Shown here piece after piece: positions 45,807-52,597 of a stretch of 64,000 bases of DNA. Source of the DNA: Actinotalea soli (GTDB lineage: Bacteria; Actinomycetota; Actinomycetes; Actinomycetales; Cellulomonadaceae); assembly GCF_017565425.1 (NCBI RefSeq), contig NZ_JAGEMK010000010.1:1-64000 (forward strand), written 5' to 3'. Made by a program: the position numbers and the translations under genes. Positions within the stretch are counted from its first letter, which is position 1. Each line of letters starts with the position of its first letter. The notes under the pieces were generated by a model. It made no database searches, was not told the DNA's origin, and worked only from the letters and a program-made list of their open reading frames with translations.

Positions 45807-46817
45807 ATGTCCGTCGTCGCCGCCGCCGACCCGCAGCGCAGGGTCCAGCCGGCGTCCCGCGGGTTCCAGGTCCAGGTCGCGCGCACCCGCCGCCTGAGCC
45901 CCAGCTTCCTGCGGATGACCTTCACCGGCCCGGACCTCGACGAGTTCGGCACCGAGGGCCTGGACCAGCGGATCAAGCTCGTGCTCCCCAACGCCTGCGG
46001 CGACCAGGTCGACGTCGCGGCCTTCACCGGCGCCGACTGGTACGCGGCCTGGCGCGAGCTCCCCGACGACCAGCGCAACCCGCTGCGGACCTACACCGTG
46101 CGCGCGGTGCGCCCCCTCGAGCGCGAGGTCGACGTCGACGTCGTGCTGCACGGGGTGGACCCCGGCGCGGTCACCACGCGGGGCTGCGGGCTGGCCCAGC
46201 TCATCGGCTGCGCGTGCAAGGCCCAGGTCGGCCCCGCCGTGAAGTGGTGCGCGGCCGCCCGCCCCGGCGACTCCCTGGTGCTCATCGGCCCGAACGCCCT
46301 GCACGAGGGCCCCAGCGCGGGCATCGAGTGGCGCCCCCCGGCTGACGCGACCTGCATGCTCCTCGCCGGGGACGAGACGGCCGCCCCGGCGATCTGCTCG
46401 ATCCTCGAGCGGCTGCCCGCGGGCACCCGAGCCCACGCCTACGTCGAGGTCCCCACCGAGCACGACGAGCTCGACGTGCACCTGCCCGAGGGCGTCGAGC
46501 TGCGGTGGCTGCCCCGCCGCACCAGCGAGGGCGTCGCGCCGCACGGCAGCCTCATGACCGAGGCCGTCCAGACCACCGCGGCCCGCCTGGCTCGGGCCCG
46601 GCACGCCGGGGTCGAGCCCGAGGACGTCGACGTCGACAACGCGATCCTCTGGGACACCACCCGCGCCACGAGCGCCCCCGACGGCGTGTACACCTGGATC
46701 GCGGGGGAGGCGGCCGTGGTCAAGGGGATCCGCCGCTACCTGGTGCGCGACCTCGGGATCGACCGCCGTGCCGTGGCGTTCATGGGCTACTGGCGCGAGG
46801 GCCGCGCGGAGAGCTGA
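45807..46817 (+). CDS. Siderophore-interacting protein, FAD-dependent ferric reductase
   Basis: A 336-residue SIP (ViuB/YqjH-like) protein that reduces ferric siderophores in the cytoplasm to release iron. The FAD-binding barrel has RLSPSFLRMTFTGPDLDEF and the flavin motif NPLRTYTVRAVRP. The NAD(P)H domain has LLAGDETAAPAICSILE and the C-terminal YTWIAGEAAVVKGIRRYLVRDLGIDRRAVAFMGYWREG, both family hallmarks. ATG 45807 with TGAGGAG upstream. Iron control is indicated by the box at 45749. Its 3' end overlaps the convergent acyltransferase gene by 38 bases. Confidence 0.92.
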   Translation: MSVVAAADPQRRVQPASRGFQVQVARTRRLSPSFLRMTFTGPDLDEFGTEGLDQRIKLVLPNACGDQVDVAAFTGADWYAAWRELPDDQRNPLRTYTVRAVRPLEREVDVDVVLHGVDPGAVTTRGCGLAQLIGCACKAQVGPAVKWCAAARPGDSLVLIGPNALHEGPSAGIEWRPPADATCMLLAGDETAAPAICSILERLPAGTRAHAYVEVPTEHDELDVHLPEGVELRWLPRRTSEGVAPHGSLMTEAVQTTAARLARARHAGVEPEDVDVDNAILWDTTRATSAPDGVYTWIAGEAAVVKGIRRYLVRDLGIDRRAVAFMGYWREGRAES

Positions 46818-47895
46818 CCGACCCCGCCCGTCGACCTCGCGGTCCGTGCTCCGTCGGACCGAAGAGACCTCCCAGCCCGACGGCGAGCAGCCGTCCGTGC
46901 ACCAGGAGGCACAGCCACACCAGCAGGGCTGTGAGCAGGAGCGGCTCCACGACCGCGAGCACCGTCCCGAGCGGACCGTTCGTCGGGATGCCCCCGCCGA
47001 GGGCGCCCGCTCCTCGGTCGAGGAGGGCCAGCAGGGGGAGGTGGAGCACGTAGACGGGGAGGGTGCGGGTCCCCAGCCACGCCAGGCCGCGTGCCCCGCG
47101 CGGCATCCGACGCGCGACCACGACGGCCAGCAGGACGCCGAAGAGGACCGCGGTCACCGACACGGCCGGCCAGACGCCGTAGACCTGCCGTGCCCCGAGC
47201 AGGCCCATCGCCGCCGAGGCCCCTGCGTAGAGGACGAGGGCCAGCGCGGTCCGTGGCACGGTCGCGCGGTCGGCGAAGCGCCGCACCGGGACGCGGAGGC
47301 GGAGCGCCCCGAGGAAGAAGACCAGGTTCTGGGTGACCTGCCACCGGTTCCCGCCGTCCGGGAGGAGGTCGGCGGAGGCCGCCGCGGACACCAGGAACGC
47401 CAGGGGCAGCAGCCAGACGGTCGGCACGCGCGCCGTGACCTTCGCCAGGAGGAAGTACAGCGCGAGGGCGTAGAGGTACCAGAGGTTCGTCGGGCTGAGG
47501 AGCAGGTGCTCGACGAGCTCGGTGAGGGAGCGTGCACGAGCGGTGTCGACGCCGGGCGTGAGGGAGAAGAGGGCTGTGTGGATCAGCAGCCAGAGCGCGT
47601 ACAGCCCGGCGAACCGCCAGACCCGCCGCCGGAGCAGGTCCCGCCAGGGCGCGGACACCGCGGAGGCGGCGAACAACCCCGAGACGGCGAAGAACAGCGG
47701 CATCCGCATCGGGGCCAGCTGCGCGGTGGAGAACGACCAGGCGGCCGGGACGAGACCGGCCTCCCACCCGACGTCGCGGTAGTGCTTGGTGACGACGTGC
47801 CACAGCACGACCAGGACGATGCAGAGTCCCTTCGCGACGTCGGGCCACAGCTCTCGGCCACGGGCCCCGGTGCTCGCCGTCACGTCGTCGGCCAT
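46780..47895 (-). CDS. Acyltransferase-3 family membrane protein, candidate VanT membrane-domain equivalent
   Basis: A 371-residue integral membrane protein with about ten helices. The N-terminal ELWPDVAKGLCIVLVVLWHVV (about 15-35) holds the His of Acyl_transf_3 proteins. MPLFFAVSGLFAASAV and the late LGTRTLPVYVLHLPLL helix also fit that family. It is the last of four overlapping genes; its ATG lies 16 bases inside the end of the ligase gene. VanT serine racemases carry an acyltransferase-3-like membrane domain fused to the racemase, and the VanL type encodes the two parts separately. By position this gene could be that part, supplying L-serine. A true acyltransferase modifying cell-envelope sugars is the alternative. 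The relationship to VanT is family-level only. Confidence 0.7.
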   Translation of the reverse strand: MADDVTASTGARGRELWPDVAKGLCIVLVVLWHVVTKHYRDVGWEAGLVPAAWSFSTAQLAPMRMPLFFAVSGLFAASAVSAPWRDLLRRRVWRFAGLYALWLLIHTALFSLTPGVDTARARSLTELVEHLLLSPTNLWYLYALALYFLLAKVTARVPTVWLLPLAFLVSAAASADLLPDGGNRWQVTQNLVFFLGALRLRVPVRRFADRATVPRTALALVLYAGASAAMGLLGARQVYGVWPAVSVTAVLFGVLLAVVVARRMPRGARGLAWLGTRTLPVYVLHLPLLALLDRGAGALGGGIPTNGPLGTVLAVVEPLLLTALLVWLCLLVHGRLLAVGLGGLFGPTEHGPRGRRAGSVSSPRGPRASSP

Positions 47896-48848
47896 CGCGC
47901 GCCCTCGACGAGCCGGCCCACCAGGTCCTCGTACGCGAGCCCCGCGGCGCGGAACATCCGCGGCACCTGCGATGCCGCCGTGAGACCGGGCATGGTGTTC
48001 ACCTCGTTGAAGACGACGCCCTCGTCGGTGAGGAAGAAGTCCATCCGGGCGACGCCGCCGCAGCCGAACGCGTCGAAGAGGGTGAGCGCAGCACGGGTCA
48101 GGGCGTCGGCCTCCTCGGGAGCGAGCAACGCCGGGACGGTGAACCGTGCGGAGCCGTCGTACTTGGTGCGCGTGTCGAAGAGACCGTCCGTGTGGATCTC
48201 CAGGGCGGGGGCGGCCCACCGAGAGCCGTCCGGTTCGCGCAGGACGGCGACGTCGATCTCGCGACCACGGATCGGCTGCTCGACCAGCACCCTGCCGTCG
48301 CCCGAGACCCGGCCCGCCGCCCTGATGGCCGCCATGAGCTCGGACGCGTCCCGGGCGAGCGAGACGCCGTGGCTCGAGCCCGAGGCCACCGGCTTCACGA
48401 CGACCTCCCGGGAGAACGCCACGGCCTCGGCCTCGACCGCCGGCACCACGACGCCGGGGGCGACCCGCACGCCTGCGTCCTGCGCGACGAGCTTGGCCAG
48501 GTGCTTGTCCATCCCCACGGCGCCGGTGGTGACCCCCGACCCGACGACCCGCACCTGCGCGAGCGAGCACAGGGCCGCGAGGACCCCGTCCTCACCGCGA
48601 GGCCCGTGCACGCAGGGGAAGACGACGTCCGAAGCCGCCAGGAACGACGTCGCCGCGACGAGGCTCTCCCCGGCGGTCGCCCCGAGCGCGTCGCCCTCCG
48701 CCCGCCAGACGCCGTCCGTCCCGATCTCGAGCAGGAGGACCGAGTGCCCCGAGCTCCACAGGGCATCGGCCACCGCGACCGCCGAGGCGGCCGAGACGTG
48801 GTGCTCGACGTTCTGCCCGCCCCCGATGACTGCCACGCGCTCACTCAT
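47880..48848 (-). CDS. D-alanine:D-alanine/D-serine ligase-like enzyme (Van-type ATP-grasp)
   Basis: A 322-residue ATP-grasp ligase of the Ddl/Van family. The N-terminal Glu is in GGGQNVEHHVSAAS (residues 9-22). The ATP site has VVVKPVASGSSHGVS (149-163) and GREIDVAVL (195-203), and metal ligands lie in ARMDFFL and VFNEVNTMPGLT (279-290). The omega loop reads GLFDTRTKY (222-230). Lys-Tyr is kept as in D-Ala-D-Ala and D-Ala-D-Ser ligases, whereas D-lactate ligases replace this Tyr environment. The preceding Phe (instead of Tyr) recalls VanC/VanG-type FFDF-EKY loops. Placed between a racemase and a membrane protein and behind vanRS/vanY-like genes, it is most simply a D-Ala-D-Ser ligase; a second Ddl is the alternative. 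The start overlaps the racemase stop (ATGA). Confidence 0.8.
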   Translation of the reverse strand: MSERVAVIGGGQNVEHHVSAASAVAVADALWSSGHSVLLLEIGTDGVWRAEGDALGATAGESLVAATSFLAASDVVFPCVHGPRGEDGVLAALCSLAQVRVVGSGVTTGAVGMDKHLAKLVAQDAGVRVAPGVVVPAVEAEAVAFSREVVVKPVASGSSHGVSLARDASELMAAIRAAGRVSGDGRVLVEQPIRGREIDVAVLREPDGSRWAAPALEIHTDGLFDTRTKYDGSARFTVPALLAPEEADALTRAALTLFDAFGCGGVARMDFFLTDEGVVFNEVNTMPGLTAASQVPRMFRAAGLAYEDLVGRLVEGARWPTT

Positions 48849-50029
48849 GGTGCCTGCCTCGGCACCCGCGGACCGATGCCCGTGACGATCGCGTGAGGGA
48901 TGGTCCCCGCCCACCCGGCCCACTCCTTGATCGTCGGGGCGCTCGTCCCCCGCGGGCCGAAGACGGTGGCGGTCGTCCCCTGCGGGAACGCGCGGGCTCC
49001 CGTGTCGACCACGACCTGGTCCATCGAGACGCGCCCCACGACGCGGTACCGGCGCCCGTCGATCCCCACCGACGCCTCGGCGGCGAGCTCCCGCGGGATG
49101 CCGTCGCCGTACCCGACACCCAGGACGCTCAGGTGGGTCGGGGCGGTCGTCACGTGGGCGCCGCCGTACCCCACCGGGGTGCCCGCGGGGACCTCGGTGG
49201 TGTGCACGACGGGGGCGGTCAACGTGGCGGCGCCGCGCAACGACGTCGTGCCTGACGGGTCGATCCCCACCAGGCCCGCACCGATCCGCACCATCTCGAA
49301 GTGCGTCGCCGGGTCGGTCAGGGTCGCGGCCGTCGTGCCCAGGTGCGACAGCAGAGGCCACAGGCCCGCAGCCACAGCGGCCTGCAGGCCAGCCGCGTAG
49401 GCCCCGATCCCGGTGCGGTTGCGAGCGGGGTCCCCGTGGTCGGCGTCGGGCAGGTGTCCCATCAGGCCCACGACGCGGATGCGGCCCCGCTCCTGCGCCT
49501 GCTGCGCGACCCGGAGCGCCACCGGCCAGTCCGCCCGGGGGAGCCCTCCGCGGGCCATCCCGGTGTCGAGGTGCAGGTGCACCCGCACCACCGACGGGGC
49601 GGCCGCCACCACGTGCTGCAGGTCCTCGACCGAACCGACCGCCACGTCGGTGCCGGTGCGGGCGGCCAGGTCGACGTCGATGCCTCCGGGATGCAGCCAG
49701 CTGAGCACGGGCTGGGTGATGCCTGCGCGTCGGAGCAGCGCGGCGTCGGCCACGTCGGTGACACCCAGCCACGAGGCGCCCGCCGCCACCGCCGCACGGG
49801 CGACCGTGAGCATGCCGTGCCCGAACCCGTCGGCCTTGACCACGGCCATCACCTGGGCGTCGGTGCGCGAGCGGATGGTGCGGACGTTGGCCTCGATCGC
49901 TGCCGCGTCGACATGGAGGGCCGGACCGGACGGGCCCGTGGTCGTGGGCTCTGCCCGCTCGACGGGCAGCTGAGCGTCGCGCGGTGGTGGGGGCCCTGGC
50001 ACCGCGGTCGTGGCCGCGCGGGAGCTCAC
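48845..50029 (-). CDS. PLP-dependent alanine/serine racemase, VanT racemase-domain type
   Basis: A 394-residue fold III racemase with a disordered N-terminal extension (about 1-35) and no membrane domain. The PLP lysine is Lys65 in VMAVVKADGFGHG, and the second catalytic base is Tyr307 in GVGYGDGIPRE. Substrate-side motifs are VSMDQVVVD and RVPR at the end. The conserved Tyr of alanine racemases in the C-terminal TINYE motif (Tyr354 of the Geobacillus enzyme) is His379 here (GTIPHAI). VanT serine racemases also lack that Tyr (Asn), and a Tyr-to-Asn change is known to raise serine racemisation. GYGDGIPR also recalls VanT. The GTG at 50029 overlaps the carboxypeptidase stop (GTGA). A housekeeping alr is presumably elsewhere. 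Confidence 0.82.
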   Translation of the reverse strand: MSSRAATTAVPGPPPPRDAQLPVERAEPTTTGPSGPALHVDAAAIEANVRTIRSRTDAQVMAVVKADGFGHGMLTVARAAVAAGASWLGVTDVADAALLRRAGITQPVLSWLHPGGIDVDLAARTGTDVAVGSVEDLQHVVAAAPSVVRVHLHLDTGMARGGLPRADWPVALRVAQQAQERGRIRVVGLMGHLPDADHGDPARNRTGIGAYAAGLQAAVAAGLWPLLSHLGTTAATLTDPATHFEMVRIGAGLVGIDPSGTTSLRGAATLTAPVVHTTEVPAGTPVGYGGAHVTTAPTHLSVLGVGYGDGIPRELAAEASVGIDGRRYRVVGRVSMDQVVVDTGARAFPQGTTATVFGPRGTSAPTIKEWAGWAGTIPHAIVTGIGPRVPRQAP

Positions 50030-50652
50030 TCGCCCGCCCCCGGGGCCGCGGACGCGTCCGGGATCAGCTCTGGGCACCCGTCCTCGGGGGCCTCGGGCCG
50101 CAGCTCGATGTGCCACACCTCGTTCGCGTAGACCTGGCACAACCCGAACGGGGCACCGTGGCGACTGAGCCACTCGGCCGTCGCATACGGTCCGACGTCG
50201 ACGGCGTCCCCCGTCACGTGGGCCGAGGTCTCGGCGGAGGCGACCCAGCGGGCCGCCTCCTCGGCGGAACCGTAGGTGCGCAGGGCGTCCTCCTGCAGCC
50301 ACTGCTGGTAGGCCGCGGACCGCCAGCCGCTCGTGACGTGCAGCGGTCGCCCGTCGGCCTCGACGACGCTCGCCGCCTCACGCAGGGCGGCGAGGAGGGC
50401 GGGGTCCAGACGCGAGACCGAGGGGACGGAGTCGTCGAACGGCGAGACGGTCTCGCCGTCGGGGATGCGACCGTCGGCGGCCGTGGGCTCGGTCGGCCCT
50501 CCCGTGAGGGTCGCGCCGAGGAAGGACGCGAGGCCGAGGCCGAGGGCCAGGAGCGCCGCGACGGTCGCGGCCGTGCGACGACGAGCTCTTCGGGGGGTAC
50601 CCGGGCGAGGCTCGGTCCTCTGCTGGGGGGCGGGGTCGGTGCGTACGGGCAT
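50026..50652 (-). CDS. Membrane-anchored M15 D,D-carboxypeptidase (VanY/VanXY-like)
   Basis: A 208-residue protein. An Arg-rich cytoplasmic N terminus (about 1-27) and one signal-anchor helix (about 28-49) precede an extracytoplasmic M15B peptidase domain. It contains VTSGWRSAAYQQWLQ (substrate Arg111) and SAHVTGDAVDVG with zinc ligands His145 and Asp152. NEVWHIEL carries the catalytic Glu178 and zinc ligand His181. All catalytic residues are intact. In van operons such enzymes remove the terminal D-Ala so that only the modified precursor stays. As a membrane-bound enzyme it looks like VanY rather than a cytosolic VanXY. It is the first gene of the four-gene minus-strand unit, divergent from vanR. 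ATG 50652 was chosen for the anchor topology; no strong Shine-Dalgarno is visible. Confidence 0.82.
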   Translation of the reverse strand: MPVRTDPAPQQRTEPRPGTPRRARRRTAATVAALLALGLGLASFLGATLTGGPTEPTAADGRIPDGETVSPFDDSVPSVSRLDPALLAALREAASVVEADGRPLHVTSGWRSAAYQQWLQEDALRTYGSAEEAARWVASAETSAHVTGDAVDVGPYATAEWLSRHGAPFGLCQVYANEVWHIELRPEAPEDGCPELIPDASAAPGAGE

Positions 50653-50684
50653 GGGTCGAGCCAACGGGGCAGGGTGTTGCCGCT

Positions 50685-50732
50685 GCGTATCGGCTCTCGC
50701 ATACGCCGGCGATACACCCCCGCGCATAAGGT
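50685..50732. promoter_or_regulatory. Divergent control region of the van-like cluster
   Basis: Only 86 bases separate the two divergent operons. GCGTAT (50685-50690) and ATACGC (50701-50706) form a perfect inverted repeat with a 10-base centre. GTATCGGC (50687-50694) and GGCGATAC (50708-50715) form an overlapping one with one mismatch. CGCATA recurs at 50698 and 50723. TAAGGT (50727-50732) lies six bases before the vanR-like GTG, a leaderless -10. These repeats are likely binding sites of the adjacent response regulator. Confidence 0.5.
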
Positions 50733-50738
50733 CGCCCT

Positions 50739-51434
50739 GTGCGCGTGCTGATCGTCGAGGACGAGCCGGACCTTGCCGCGGCCGTCCGCGACGGGCTCCG
50801 GCTCGAGGCGATCGCTGCGGACGTCGCGCACGACGGCGACAGCGCCCTCGAGCTGCTGAGCATCAACTCCTACGCCGTGGCGGTGCTCGACCGCGACGTC
50901 CCTGGCCCCTCGGGTGACGACGTCGCGCGCTGGATCGTCGACTCCGGGTCGCGCACGCCGATCCTCATGCTGACGGCTGCCGACCGTCTGGACGACAAGG
51001 CCAGCGGCTTCGAGCTGGGTGCCGACGACTACCTGACCAAGCCCTTCGCGATGCGTGAGCTCGTGCTGCGGGTCCGCGCCCTCGGCCGCCGGGCCGCCCC
51101 GCACACCCCGCCGACCCTCGAGCTCGCCGACCTCCGGCTCGACCCGTTCCGGCGCGAGGTCTTCCGGGGCGGCAGGTACGTCGCGGTCACGCGCAAGCAG
51201 TTCGCCGTGCTCGAGGTGCTCATGGCGGCCGGTGGTGGTGTGGTCAGCGCCGAGCAGCTGCTCGCGCAGGCGTGGGACGAGAACGCCGACCCCTTCACCA
51301 ACGCGGTGCGGATCACGATCTCGCAGCTGCGCAAGCGCCTGGGCGAACCCTGGCTCATCGGCACCGTCCCGGGGGCGGGGTACCGCATCGAGACCGGGGA
51401 GCCCGCCCGGTCCGCGGAGGTGGAGGGTGGGTAG
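50739..51434 (+). CDS. OmpR-family response regulator, VanR-like
   Basis: A 231-residue two-domain regulator. The receiver has the acidic pocket VEDEPD (7-11), phospho-acceptor Asp51 in AVAVLDRDVPGPSGDDV, switch Thr in ILMLTAADR and Lys in YLTKPF. The winged-helix output domain (about 130-225) contains FRGGRYVAVTRKQFAVLEVLM and NAVRITISQLRKRLG. The LDRDVPG motif is shared with VanR and related actinobacterial regulators. GTG start is leaderless after TAAGGT. It overlaps the sensor kinase gene by eight bases and faces away from the four cell-wall genes, which it most likely controls. Confidence 0.85.
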   Translation: MRVLIVEDEPDLAAAVRDGLRLEAIAADVAHDGDSALELLSINSYAVAVLDRDVPGPSGDDVARWIVDSGSRTPILMLTAADRLDDKASGFELGADDYLTKPFAMRELVLRVRALGRRAAPHTPPTLELADLRLDPFRREVFRGGRYVAVTRKQFAVLEVLMAAGGGVVSAEQLLAQAWDENADPFTNAVRITISQLRKRLGEPWLIGTVPGAGYRIETGEPARSAEVEGG

Positions 51435-52530
51435 GCGGGGCCTGTCCGCGCGGTTGCGGCTCACCCTCAGCTACGCGGCGCTCGTCGCCGTCGTGAGTGC
51501 GCTGCTGCTGGCGGTCGTCCTGCTCTTCCTCCTGCGCTACGTGCCCGAGGGCAACATCGTCCTCCTGGGACCTGGTCAGTCGGCGACCTTCGTGCCCGAC
51601 CGGTCCGACCTCCTGCGCGCCTTCGTGCCGGCGGCGGCCGTCAGCATCCTGCTGTCCTTCGCCCTCGGGATGCTCGGGGGGTGGTGGCTCGCCGGCCGGG
51701 TGCTGCGGCCGCTCGCCGCCCTCGGCGACGCGGCACGGCGAGCCGCGGCGGGGTCGCTGGCGCACCGGATCGGACCGCGCGGACCGCAGGACGAGTTCCG
51801 TGAGGTCGCCGAGGCCTTCGACGCGATGCTGGCACGGATCGAGCGGAGCGTCGACGAGCACCGACGCTTCGCGGCCGACGCCTCGCACGAGCTCCGCACC
51901 CCGCTGGCCACCACGAGGGCGGTCCTCGACGTCGCCGCGGCCGACCCGGAGGTGGACACGCAGCAGGTCCTCGCGCGGCTCCGCGCCGCGAACGATCGGG
52001 CCGTCGCCGTCACCGAGTCCCTGCTGCTCATCGCGCGGACGGACGCCGTCCCGCCCGAGCGGGTCGAGGTCGACCTGGCCCTCGTCCTGGAGGACGCGGT
52101 CGAGACCCTCGCGCACCTCGCCGAGTCACGGGGGGTCGAGCTGCGGGTCGACGCGCGGCCCGCCGTCGTCCGCGGGGACGAGGCCCTGCTCCAGCGGCTC
52201 GCCGTCAACCTGGTCCAGAACGCCGTCGTGCACAATGTGGCCACCGGCGGGTGGGTCCAGGTGGGCGCCCACAGCTCGGGCGGCGAGGCCCGCCTCACGG
52301 TCGAGAACACCGGCGGCGTCCTGACGCCGGAGGAGGTGGTGCGGCTGACAGCCCCGTTCCACCGTGGTGCGGGGCGGGCGCGCACGAGCGATCACGGCGG
52401 CGCAGGCCTCGGCCTGGCCATCGTGACGTCGATCCTCGACGCGCACGGCGGCACCCTCGTGCTCACGCCGCGGGACGAGGGCGGCCTGGTCGCGACCGCA
52501 GCCTTCGCCGCCGTCGCGGGGCGCCCGTGA
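51427..52530 (+). CDS. Sensor histidine kinase, VanS-like
   Basis: A 367-residue membrane kinase with two transmembrane helices (about 13-37 and 66-90) around a short extracytoplasmic loop of about 30 residues. A HAMP domain (about 91-145) follows. The H box FAADASHELRTPL has phospho-acceptor His154. N box NLVQNAVVHN and G boxes GGAGLGLAIV follow. The small outer loop resembles intramembrane-type sensing, or VanS types with little periplasmic domain, so the trigger (glycopeptide or envelope stress) cannot be read from it. The GTG at 51427 overlaps the regulator gene. It ends 68 bases before the PaiB-like gene. Confidence 0.85.
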   Translation: MGRRGLSARLRLTLSYAALVAVVSALLLAVVLLFLLRYVPEGNIVLLGPGQSATFVPDRSDLLRAFVPAAAVSILLSFALGMLGGWWLAGRVLRPLAALGDAARRAAAGSLAHRIGPRGPQDEFREVAEAFDAMLARIERSVDEHRRFAADASHELRTPLATTRAVLDVAAADPEVDTQQVLARLRAANDRAVAVTESLLLIARTDAVPPERVEVDLALVLEDAVETLAHLAESRGVELRVDARPAVVRGDEALLQRLAVNLVQNAVVHNVATGGWVQVGAHSSGGEARLTVENTGGVLTPEEVVRLTAPFHRGAGRARTSDHGGAGLGLAIVTSILDAHGGTLVLTPRDEGGLVATAAFAAVAGRP

Positions 52531-52597
52531 GCCTGGGGCGGCGTGATCGTGGCACAGTCGGCCCTGACCGCGAGACGCCCAACCCGAAGGGCCGCCG

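Follow-up and report, generated by a model that had tools for sequence, protein, structure and literature searches.

A candidate glycopeptide-inducible switch of peptidoglycan-precursor ends in Actinotalea soli and other actinobacteria

The first 64,000 nucleotides of a contig from the Actinotalea soli genome (NZ_JAGEMK010000010.1, assembly GCF_017565425.1; hereafter the window) contain a compact six-gene cassette, in which a VanR/VanS-type regulator pair lies divergent from four minus-strand genes encoding a peptidase, a racemase, an ATP-grasp ligase and an acyltransferase-3 (AT3) membrane protein (Table 1). We put at roughly 60% the probability that this cassette is a glycopeptide-inducible switch, of separate actinobacterial descent, which makes peptidoglycan precursors ending in D-alanyl-D-X (D-Ala-D-X). 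The residue X would probably be D-serine (D-Ser), and this is the weakest point of the argument.

Table 1. Features of the cassette, in window positions (ligase residues in P0001 numbering, which is 2 higher than counting from the ATG of the protein)
Feature	Position	Strand	Basis
AT3 membrane protein, accessory	46780..47895	-	Pfam Acyl_transf_3 91.2 bits
ATP-grasp D-Ala-D-X ligase (predicted)	47880..48848	-	Pfam Dala_Dala_lig_N/C; own clade; L218, F226, Y232, Q296
Fold-III pyridoxal phosphate racemase, H379 at the Tyr354-type substrate gate	48845..50029	-	Pfam Ala_racemase_N/C; TIGR00492 226 bits
Membrane-anchored VanY-like M15 D,D-carboxypeptidase (predicted)	50026..50652	-	Pfam VanY 39.7 bits; NCBIfam vanY_far 65.5/250 bits
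Operator (predicted) CGTAT-N10-ATAYRY-NNN-CGATAY, two boxes 11 bp apart	50686..50715	+	sole genome match
VanR-O-like response regulator	50739..51434	+	NF033118 374.6 bits vs cut-off 505
VanS-O-like sensor kinase	51427..52530	+	NF033094 282 bits vs cut-off 720
Accessory block	46818..52567		blastn matches to two same-genus genomes stop at its edges

The minus-strand genes overlap by 4 (peptidase/racemase), 4 (racemase/ligase) and 16 bases (ligase/AT3), a Pfam domain search recognised response regulator and kinase domains in the two regulator products, and vanH is not among the six genes. The facing arrangement, all six genes and the three overlaps are as described in an earlier reading of the sequence (the original prediction), whose view of the set as one unit is borne out. 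Specifically, the combination of VanRS, VanY, racemase and ligase was found again in Actinomadura, Microbacterium and Kocuria records and in metagenome-assembled genomes (MAGs), and because it recurs in other genera and has sharp block edges relative to two relatives, the set is more than a chance neighbourhood.

The block itself is accessory. Two same-genus genomes, G376 (about 95% DNA identity) and G066 (75-77%), align with the window as far as 46817/46818 and again from 52568, leaving the 5.75 kb between the edges unmatched in both (L198/L199 and L197, respectively); the left edge is the stop of a siderophore-type reductase gene and the right edge lies just short of the next gene. Both flanks stand on a single contig in G066, with one other gene in between. 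The flanks in G376 (660 contigs) are found on two contigs, each adjoining unrelated sequence (one piece of which resembles a transposase fragment), so that the absence is seen there from each side only, and the spot may be a variable site. In 7 other same-genus genomes the best ligase match (E 4e-47) is below clade level, and among 8 further ones a ligase of the clade (E<=1e-60) was found in a single genome (G377, 53% identity), the seven without it including G376.

Related clusters were collected by a scan with one genome per species, which confirmed at least 549 relatives and of which the best 80 loci were kept. The search patterns were ligase columns 111-118 and 281-288, which cover G111 and leave positions 218, 226 and 296 outside. 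Together with the window, a second cluster of the same genome (C29) and seven loci of the family, these loci give 89 typed rows (87 distinct, two Oerskovia loci being doubled: by ligase sequence L036 = L101 and L037 = L099, both doubles among the non-type-I rows). Type I, defined by the presence of VanY and/or VanRS-O-like proteins, comprises 32 rows (18 from Microbacterium, 8 from Actinomadura, 1 from Kocuria and 3 from other MAGs, plus G017 and the window), with VanY recognised in 30 and VanRS in 28. The other 57 rows, from Nocardioides, Jiangella, Lentzea, Oerskovia, Frankia and others, have VanX in 50 cases, a NarL-type regulator in 39 and neither in 2 (L075, L108), and at the thresholds used VanY and VanX occur together in none of the 89 rows. 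Since many rows are near relatives, these counts are not independent events. Type III, present in three family genomes (L039, L040, L041), consists of VanX, a PGA_cap-domain protein, a weakly AT3-like protein without Pfam match and a racemase, and, divergent from these, the ligase together with a separate AT3 gene. In the order to which the window belongs, the ligase clade (E<=1e-65) was found in 17/297 genomes and 9/94 genera, and two copies only in the genome of the window. One Actinomadura terrae locus (L048) has the ligase and a VanY-like piece, with no recognised racemase, VanRS or operator core, and is possibly a decayed cluster.

The lineage of the ligase was addressed with profiles and a tree. 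Its best NCBIfam models are generic Ddl models, both below cut-off (254/262 and 239/246 bits), and none of the Van ligase cut-offs is reached (VanG 200/495, VanC 143/650, VanL 143/750, VanE 132/700, VanN 131/700 and D_ala_D_ser 176/520 bits). Indeed, a VanG profile run across the ligases of the genome gives 291 bits for the housekeeping Ddl (C11, see below), 195 for the ligase of the second cluster and 182 for that of the window. In a tree of 55 sequences, including 32 of the 89 cluster rows (VanC, E, L and N were compared by profile only), the 29 type I/II ligases form one group (support 100/99), as do those of type I (100/99), and type III stands apart (100/100). Six Van references (VanA, VanB, a VanI-like, two VanG-like and a vanHAX-like ligase of the family) form another group (95/93; 99/95 once a Macrococcoides Ddl is included). 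The Ddl of C11 falls in a further group with the other housekeeping-type Ddl, 13 in all (100/99). The cluster ligases are thus a clade of their own, apart from Van ligases and from ordinary Ddl. The expectation that the ligase would cluster with VanC/G/L fails here, and so does the opposite outcome named beside it, a grouping with ordinary actinobacterial Ddl; membership in the VanC/E/G/L/N family was rejected on the profiles and on the tree with its two VanG-like sequences.

More specifically, the acceptor site carries residues that are fixed in the clade. In the alignment, Q296 of the window ligase corresponds to L282 of E. coli DdlB and R324 of VanG (numbered on the 4fu0 alignment), F226 to DdlB Y210 and VanG F252, Y232 to DdlB Y216, and L218 to VanG D243; we take VanG D243, F252 and R324, and likewise VanC2 F250 and R322, to have a role in D-Ser selection. 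Gln at 296 and Phe at 226 are present in 89/89 cluster rows. The ligases of the housekeeping set have Met and Tyr at these positions in 13/14 cases, the exception (L024) being the G087 type III ligase, wrongly put there. Position 218 is Leu in 29/29 type I/II ligases and in the 3/3 type III ligases tested, and Gly, Ile or Val in 16 Ddl-type sequences. An unbiased column scan returned seven columns (11, 111, 124, 152, 201, 218 and 296) that are invariant in the 29 clade sequences and whose residue none of the 16 Ddl-type ones has, two of which (218 and 296) are positions that we presume to govern D-Ser selection in VanG. These changes point to an altered acceptor specificity. Compared with the VanG triad, only one of three residues is shared (F226), and this Phe is not exclusive to Van ligases. 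An initial equation of F226 with DdlB Tyr216 was dropped, as the alignment with DdlB pairs Tyr216 with the unchanged Y232.

The omega loop retains K231 and Y232, like that of VanG-like ligases and Ddl, at positions where VanA-type ligases have Glu and Val/Asn/Asp/Glu; since they are kept and there is no vanH in the cassette, the substrate would be a D-amino acid rather than D-lactate. Available extracts of one study describe Tyr216 and Ser150 as conserved in ligases making only D-Ala-D-Ala (PMC7691350), and because their equivalents are kept here, as in VanG-like ligases, these two residues are no argument for a changed specificity.

A parallel change is found in the racemase, which passes the alr cut-off of TIGR00492 (168 bits) and stays below the VanT racemase models (vanT-G-Cterm 163/460, vanT-CELN 97/900 bits). 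At the substrate gate (position of Tyr354 in Geobacillus Alr), the 87 cluster rows have His in 83 cases, Asn in 3 (all type III) and one unreadable residue (the cut locus L051), and the 26/26 housekeeping Alr have Tyr, as do the alanine racemases 1vfh and 5fac of the PDB, the former presumably from the cycloserine producer Streptomyces lavendulae. A VanT in locus L131 has Asn at the gate, in line with what we assume to be Asn696 of VanTG. With regard to function, the accessible part of an experimental study reports that an Alr with Gln at the gate has 28% relative activity on L-Ser, a Tyr mutant being far lower, and that a racemase with His at the gate has a broader specificity (PMC4517790). 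In a tree of 31 of the 87 cluster rows, 14 of the 26 housekeeping Alr and one VanT, for which the bootstrap had not settled, type I (100/100), types I and II (100/100) and types I to III (97/87) are apart from housekeeping Alr (97/96), and the placement of VanT is unsure because of its very long branch.

The source genome (3.63 Mb in 32 contigs, listed as 100% complete) has further copies of both enzymes. Four ligase homologues were found, namely that of the window and those on C29, C11 and C22 (53%, 46% and 31% identity to it, respectively), as well as three fold-III racemases (window, C29 and C28). Read from their translations without a model, the C11 ddl adjoins gpsA-, plsC-, murA- and leuD-like genes and the C28 alr adjoins tsaD/tsaB/tsaE-like genes, and relatives of the C28 Alr (E<=1e-60) are present in 25/25 other genomes of the family searched; we take the two as the probable housekeeping pair. 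In both trees housekeeping and cassette enzymes fall in different clades. The separate ddl and alr that the original prediction proposed to look for thus exist, and the cassette ligase and racemase are not the only ones of the genome. The fourth homologue, on C22 (L013 5913-6854), is a divergent Ddl-like ATP-grasp gene adjoining aminotransferase-like, trx- and par-like genes. A close relative of the C11 Ddl is missing in 4/8 same-genus genomes searched (G008, G050, G089 and G099, that is L201, L202, L203 and L204; best E 1e-26 to 1e-33); their usual ddl neighbourhood (gpsA- and thiL-like genes, by reading) holds two convergent, divergent-sequence Ddl-like ATP-grasp genes, adjoining a MurF-like or other membrane-start protein of about 514 residues.

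The second cluster on C29 (L012 5128-10921, about 131127-136920) encodes an M15 D-Ala-D-Ala dipeptidase of VanX type (PF01427), a racemase, a ligase, an AT3 protein, a HisKA_3 kinase and a LuxR-type regulator. Its ligase and racemase share the acceptor-site and gate residues of those of the window, its regulators differ and the type I operator core is absent.

The regulators of the window are best described by the VanR-O and VanS-O models of NCBIfam, with the next models far behind (176.9 bits for VanR, 171.8 for VanS), and the VanR is 75% identical to its G017 orthologue. The word CGATAT/ATATCG occurs upstream of vanR in 27/28 loci, the maximum for any word in 30 shuffled sets being 16, although part of this enrichment reflects descent, as the loci are mutually related. 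The extended pattern given in Table 1 has its single match in the genome, with up to 2 mismatches allowed, between the two operons, and the reversed pattern has 0 genome matches. Its core ATAYRYNNNCGATAY is present in 31/32 type I rows (it is absent from L048) and 0/57 others, and the reversed core is in no row. Seven Actinomadura loci with non-divergent regulators (L044, L045, L047, L052, L053, L055 and L056) have two copies of the core, of which one lies on the minus strand, upstream of the peptidase-racemase-ligase side, and the other immediately precedes the regulators. There are exceptions in detail: in L056 the first core is 1.8 kb ahead of the VanY piece that was recognised, VanY is not recognised in L047, VanR is not recognised in L055 (where the second core precedes vanS), and vanR in L053 is 5.5 kb from the ligase. 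Taken together, this co-distribution is strong evidence that one regulator controls the type I unit, and the PhoB/OmpR-like spacing of the boxes, combined with it, suggests VanR as that regulator. By eye, the vanR of the window (region 50630-50738) looks leaderless: several type I loci have a -10-like element a few bases ahead of the vanR start. On the vanY side of the intergenic region there is also a recurrent AGTCAA/TTGACT-like word.

The peptidase more probably starts at 50652, since a frame opened at 50727 would extend across the operator. The product has the motifs S-x-H-x2-G-x-A-x-D and E-x-W-H and an N-terminal hydrophobic stretch (by eye), reaches 22/250 bits on the vanXY model and has no sequence relative in the PDB at E<=0.01. 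The AT3 gene is where the original prediction placed it, and its standing as a full member of the unit did not hold, since an own profile recognises it in only 12/32 type I rows (some rows are cut by contig ends); for the same reason the idea that it is the detached membrane half of a VanT was weakened. VanT models have no match to the AT3 protein of the window at E<=0.001. AT3 proteins carry an R-X10-H motif, according to the available part of PMC9833829. Counted by eye, the window protein keeps the conserved His and has Lys in place of Arg (K-X10-H); the Arg is retained in the VanT of L131 and in the AT3 of C29.

Combining altered acceptor and gate residues, D-Ala-D-Ala peptidase partners and, in type I, Van-type regulators, the following mechanism is proposed. 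The VanS-O-like kinase would sense a glycopeptide or its effect and phosphorylate VanR, which would bind the direct-repeat operator and activate the divergent operon as well as its own. The membrane-anchored peptidase would then strip the terminal D-Ala off existing precursors, while the racemase, with Tyr replaced by His at its gate, would yield some D-amino acid instead of or alongside D-Ala, D-Ser being the likeliest. The ligase would couple this amino acid to D-Ala, and newly made precursors would then carry a D-Ala-D-X end that binds vancomycin weakly, resistance being the presumed outcome; the acyltransferase would be accessory. That the product is not D-Ala-D-Ala is suggested by the VanX partner of the same ligase/racemase pair in 50/57 sister rows, which would make such synthesis futile. 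The proposal that the unit should change the precursor terminus thus agrees with the residue changes, and its attribution to enzymes of VanC/G/L type is not supported.

Several observations weigh against the proposed switch. Both regulators remain below their model cut-offs, the NCBIfam name of the racemase is alr, and a His gate is also found in a catabolic alanine racemase (PMC4517790, accessible part). Type I has no cytoplasmic VanX or VanXY to remove the D-Ala-D-Ala dipeptide, and a reading of AT3 and racemase as a split VanT is weak because AT3 is unrecognised in 20/32 type I rows. With regard to the ligase, Phe at the position of F226 is shared by a Nonomuraea Ddl in a gpsA-ddl-thiL setting (by reading) and is therefore not diagnostic, and in 15 further order-level loci, 13 of them readable, position 296 is Gln in 12 and Ala in 1 (L178). 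Finally, positions 296 and 218 of the ligase hold Gln and Leu, which neither Ddl nor VanG has there, and the acceptor may therefore be something other than D-Ser.

This last point leads to the strongest alternative, which we nevertheless regard as unlikely, namely that the switch exists and X is some other D-amino acid, or else a mixture, with the Q296/L218 site recognising a different side chain. It would account for residues that match neither Ddl nor Van states in 29/29 type I/II ligases and for a racemase with His, not the Asn of VanT, in 83/87 rows. However, type III pairs a VanT-like Asn with the same ligase Gln, and a Gln gate admits L-Ser and a His gate is broad in the accessible data of PMC4517790. 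Less probable again is a cell-wall stress supply, in which D-Ala-D-Ala synthesis is boosted and VanY trims pentapeptides to tetrapeptides, any resistance coming from VanY alone. VanRSY triads without a ligase are indeed reported from many actinobacterial orders in the available text of PMC8698665, and the alr name of the racemase would fit, but the acceptor positions have fixed non-Ddl residues. The clade-wide partnership with VanX in sister clusters also speaks against it. Slightly more doubtful still is an inducible set of spare enzymes for tolerance to D-cycloserine, whose targets are Alr and Ddl: exactly these two are duplicated, each with changed active-site residues, yet the VanY/VanX peptidases and VanRS-O-like regulators would be without a role, and 1vfh, presumably from a producer of the drug, keeps the gate Tyr. 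Acquisition of a true VanC/E/G/L/N-type cluster from Firmicutes, as originally proposed, has a similar gene content and the VanG-like Lys and Tyr of the omega loop in its favour and is highly improbable, being contradicted by the ligase tree, by all model scores and by a racemase tree in which the sole VanT is on a long branch.

Compared with known systems, the switch proposed here would share features with several. The VanC/E/G/L/N operons (e.g. the VanG-like operon of L131) also have the FD-x3-KY omega loop, a changed racemase gate, an AT3 domain nearby, a peptidase and, the L131 regulators aside, VanRS. Their ligases, however, are a separate lineage with Arg and Asp (VanG R324 and D243) where the window has Gln and Leu; VanT has an Asn gate and AT3 fused to the racemase, whereas the window has a His gate and two separate genes, AT3 being optional; and a cytoplasmic VanXY (or VanX plus VanY) stands against a single membrane-anchored VanY-like peptidase. 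The VanO operon of Rhodococcus and other vanHAX operons for D-Ala-D-lactate (D-Ala-D-Lac) are similar in their regulators, for which VanR-O/VanS-O are the best models here, and differ in having vanH and a VanA/B-type ligase without K231/Y232. A vanHAX-like set is present in another genome of the family (L042 6531-9155, G068:C98), where the ligase groups with Van ligases in the tree and the other two genes are named by reading. The pdx operon of Micromonosporales (PALP dehydratase-like enzyme, Ddl, VanX and VanRS) is likewise an actinobacterial ligase set with a suggested D-Ala-D-Ser-like route (PMC8698665); from its description in the available text, it has the PALP-like enzyme where the window has a fold-III racemase.

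The arrangement is already catalogued in part, in print since 2021: vanRSY beside a racemase and a ddl is described as a rare set of a few genomes (Allonocardiopsis opalescens, Murinocardiopsis flavida and, rarely, Geodermatophilales), a D-Ala-D-Ser-like route is raised for such loci, and mainly vanHAX-type sets are listed for Micrococcales (Andreo-Vidal et al. 2021, PMC8698665, available portions). These loci have the same arrangement as the window and, judging by the text description, would be the same kind of cluster; residues, an operator, the ligase lineage and a VanX/NarL-type sister cluster are not treated in the available portions. In the open-licence literature searched (subscription literature lying outside the search), neither the residue code nor the operator was found described, and the same holds for the separate ligase lineage and for the sister cluster; PMC12004154 contains no acceptor-residue terms. 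On D-Ala-D-Ser in Microbacterium with vancomycin the same literature yielded one paper, on beach sand, and it returned nothing on vancomycin and teicoplanin in either Microbacterium resistens or Aureobacterium. The phenotype of Microbacterium resistens is resistance to vancomycin with susceptibility to teicoplanin.

On a broader view, the odds are about even that these clusters represent a third, separately evolved actinobacterial family of terminus switches, beside the VanA type (D-Lac) and the VanC/G type (D-Ser). Such a family would have its own code of L218/Q296 in the ligase and His or Asn in the racemase, at least two regulatory forms (VanRS with VanY, NarL-type with VanX) and a compact cassette spread among genera, and would have arrived at D-Ala-D-Ser by convergence or at an undescribed terminus. 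If so, common actinobacteria would be a reservoir of glycopeptide-resistance-type cassettes, none of whose products in the window reaches an NCBIfam Van cut-off. The family would also provide a natural test of the repeated evolution of ligase and racemase specificity at the same sites, and the operator would make the type I cassette easy to spot in genomes.

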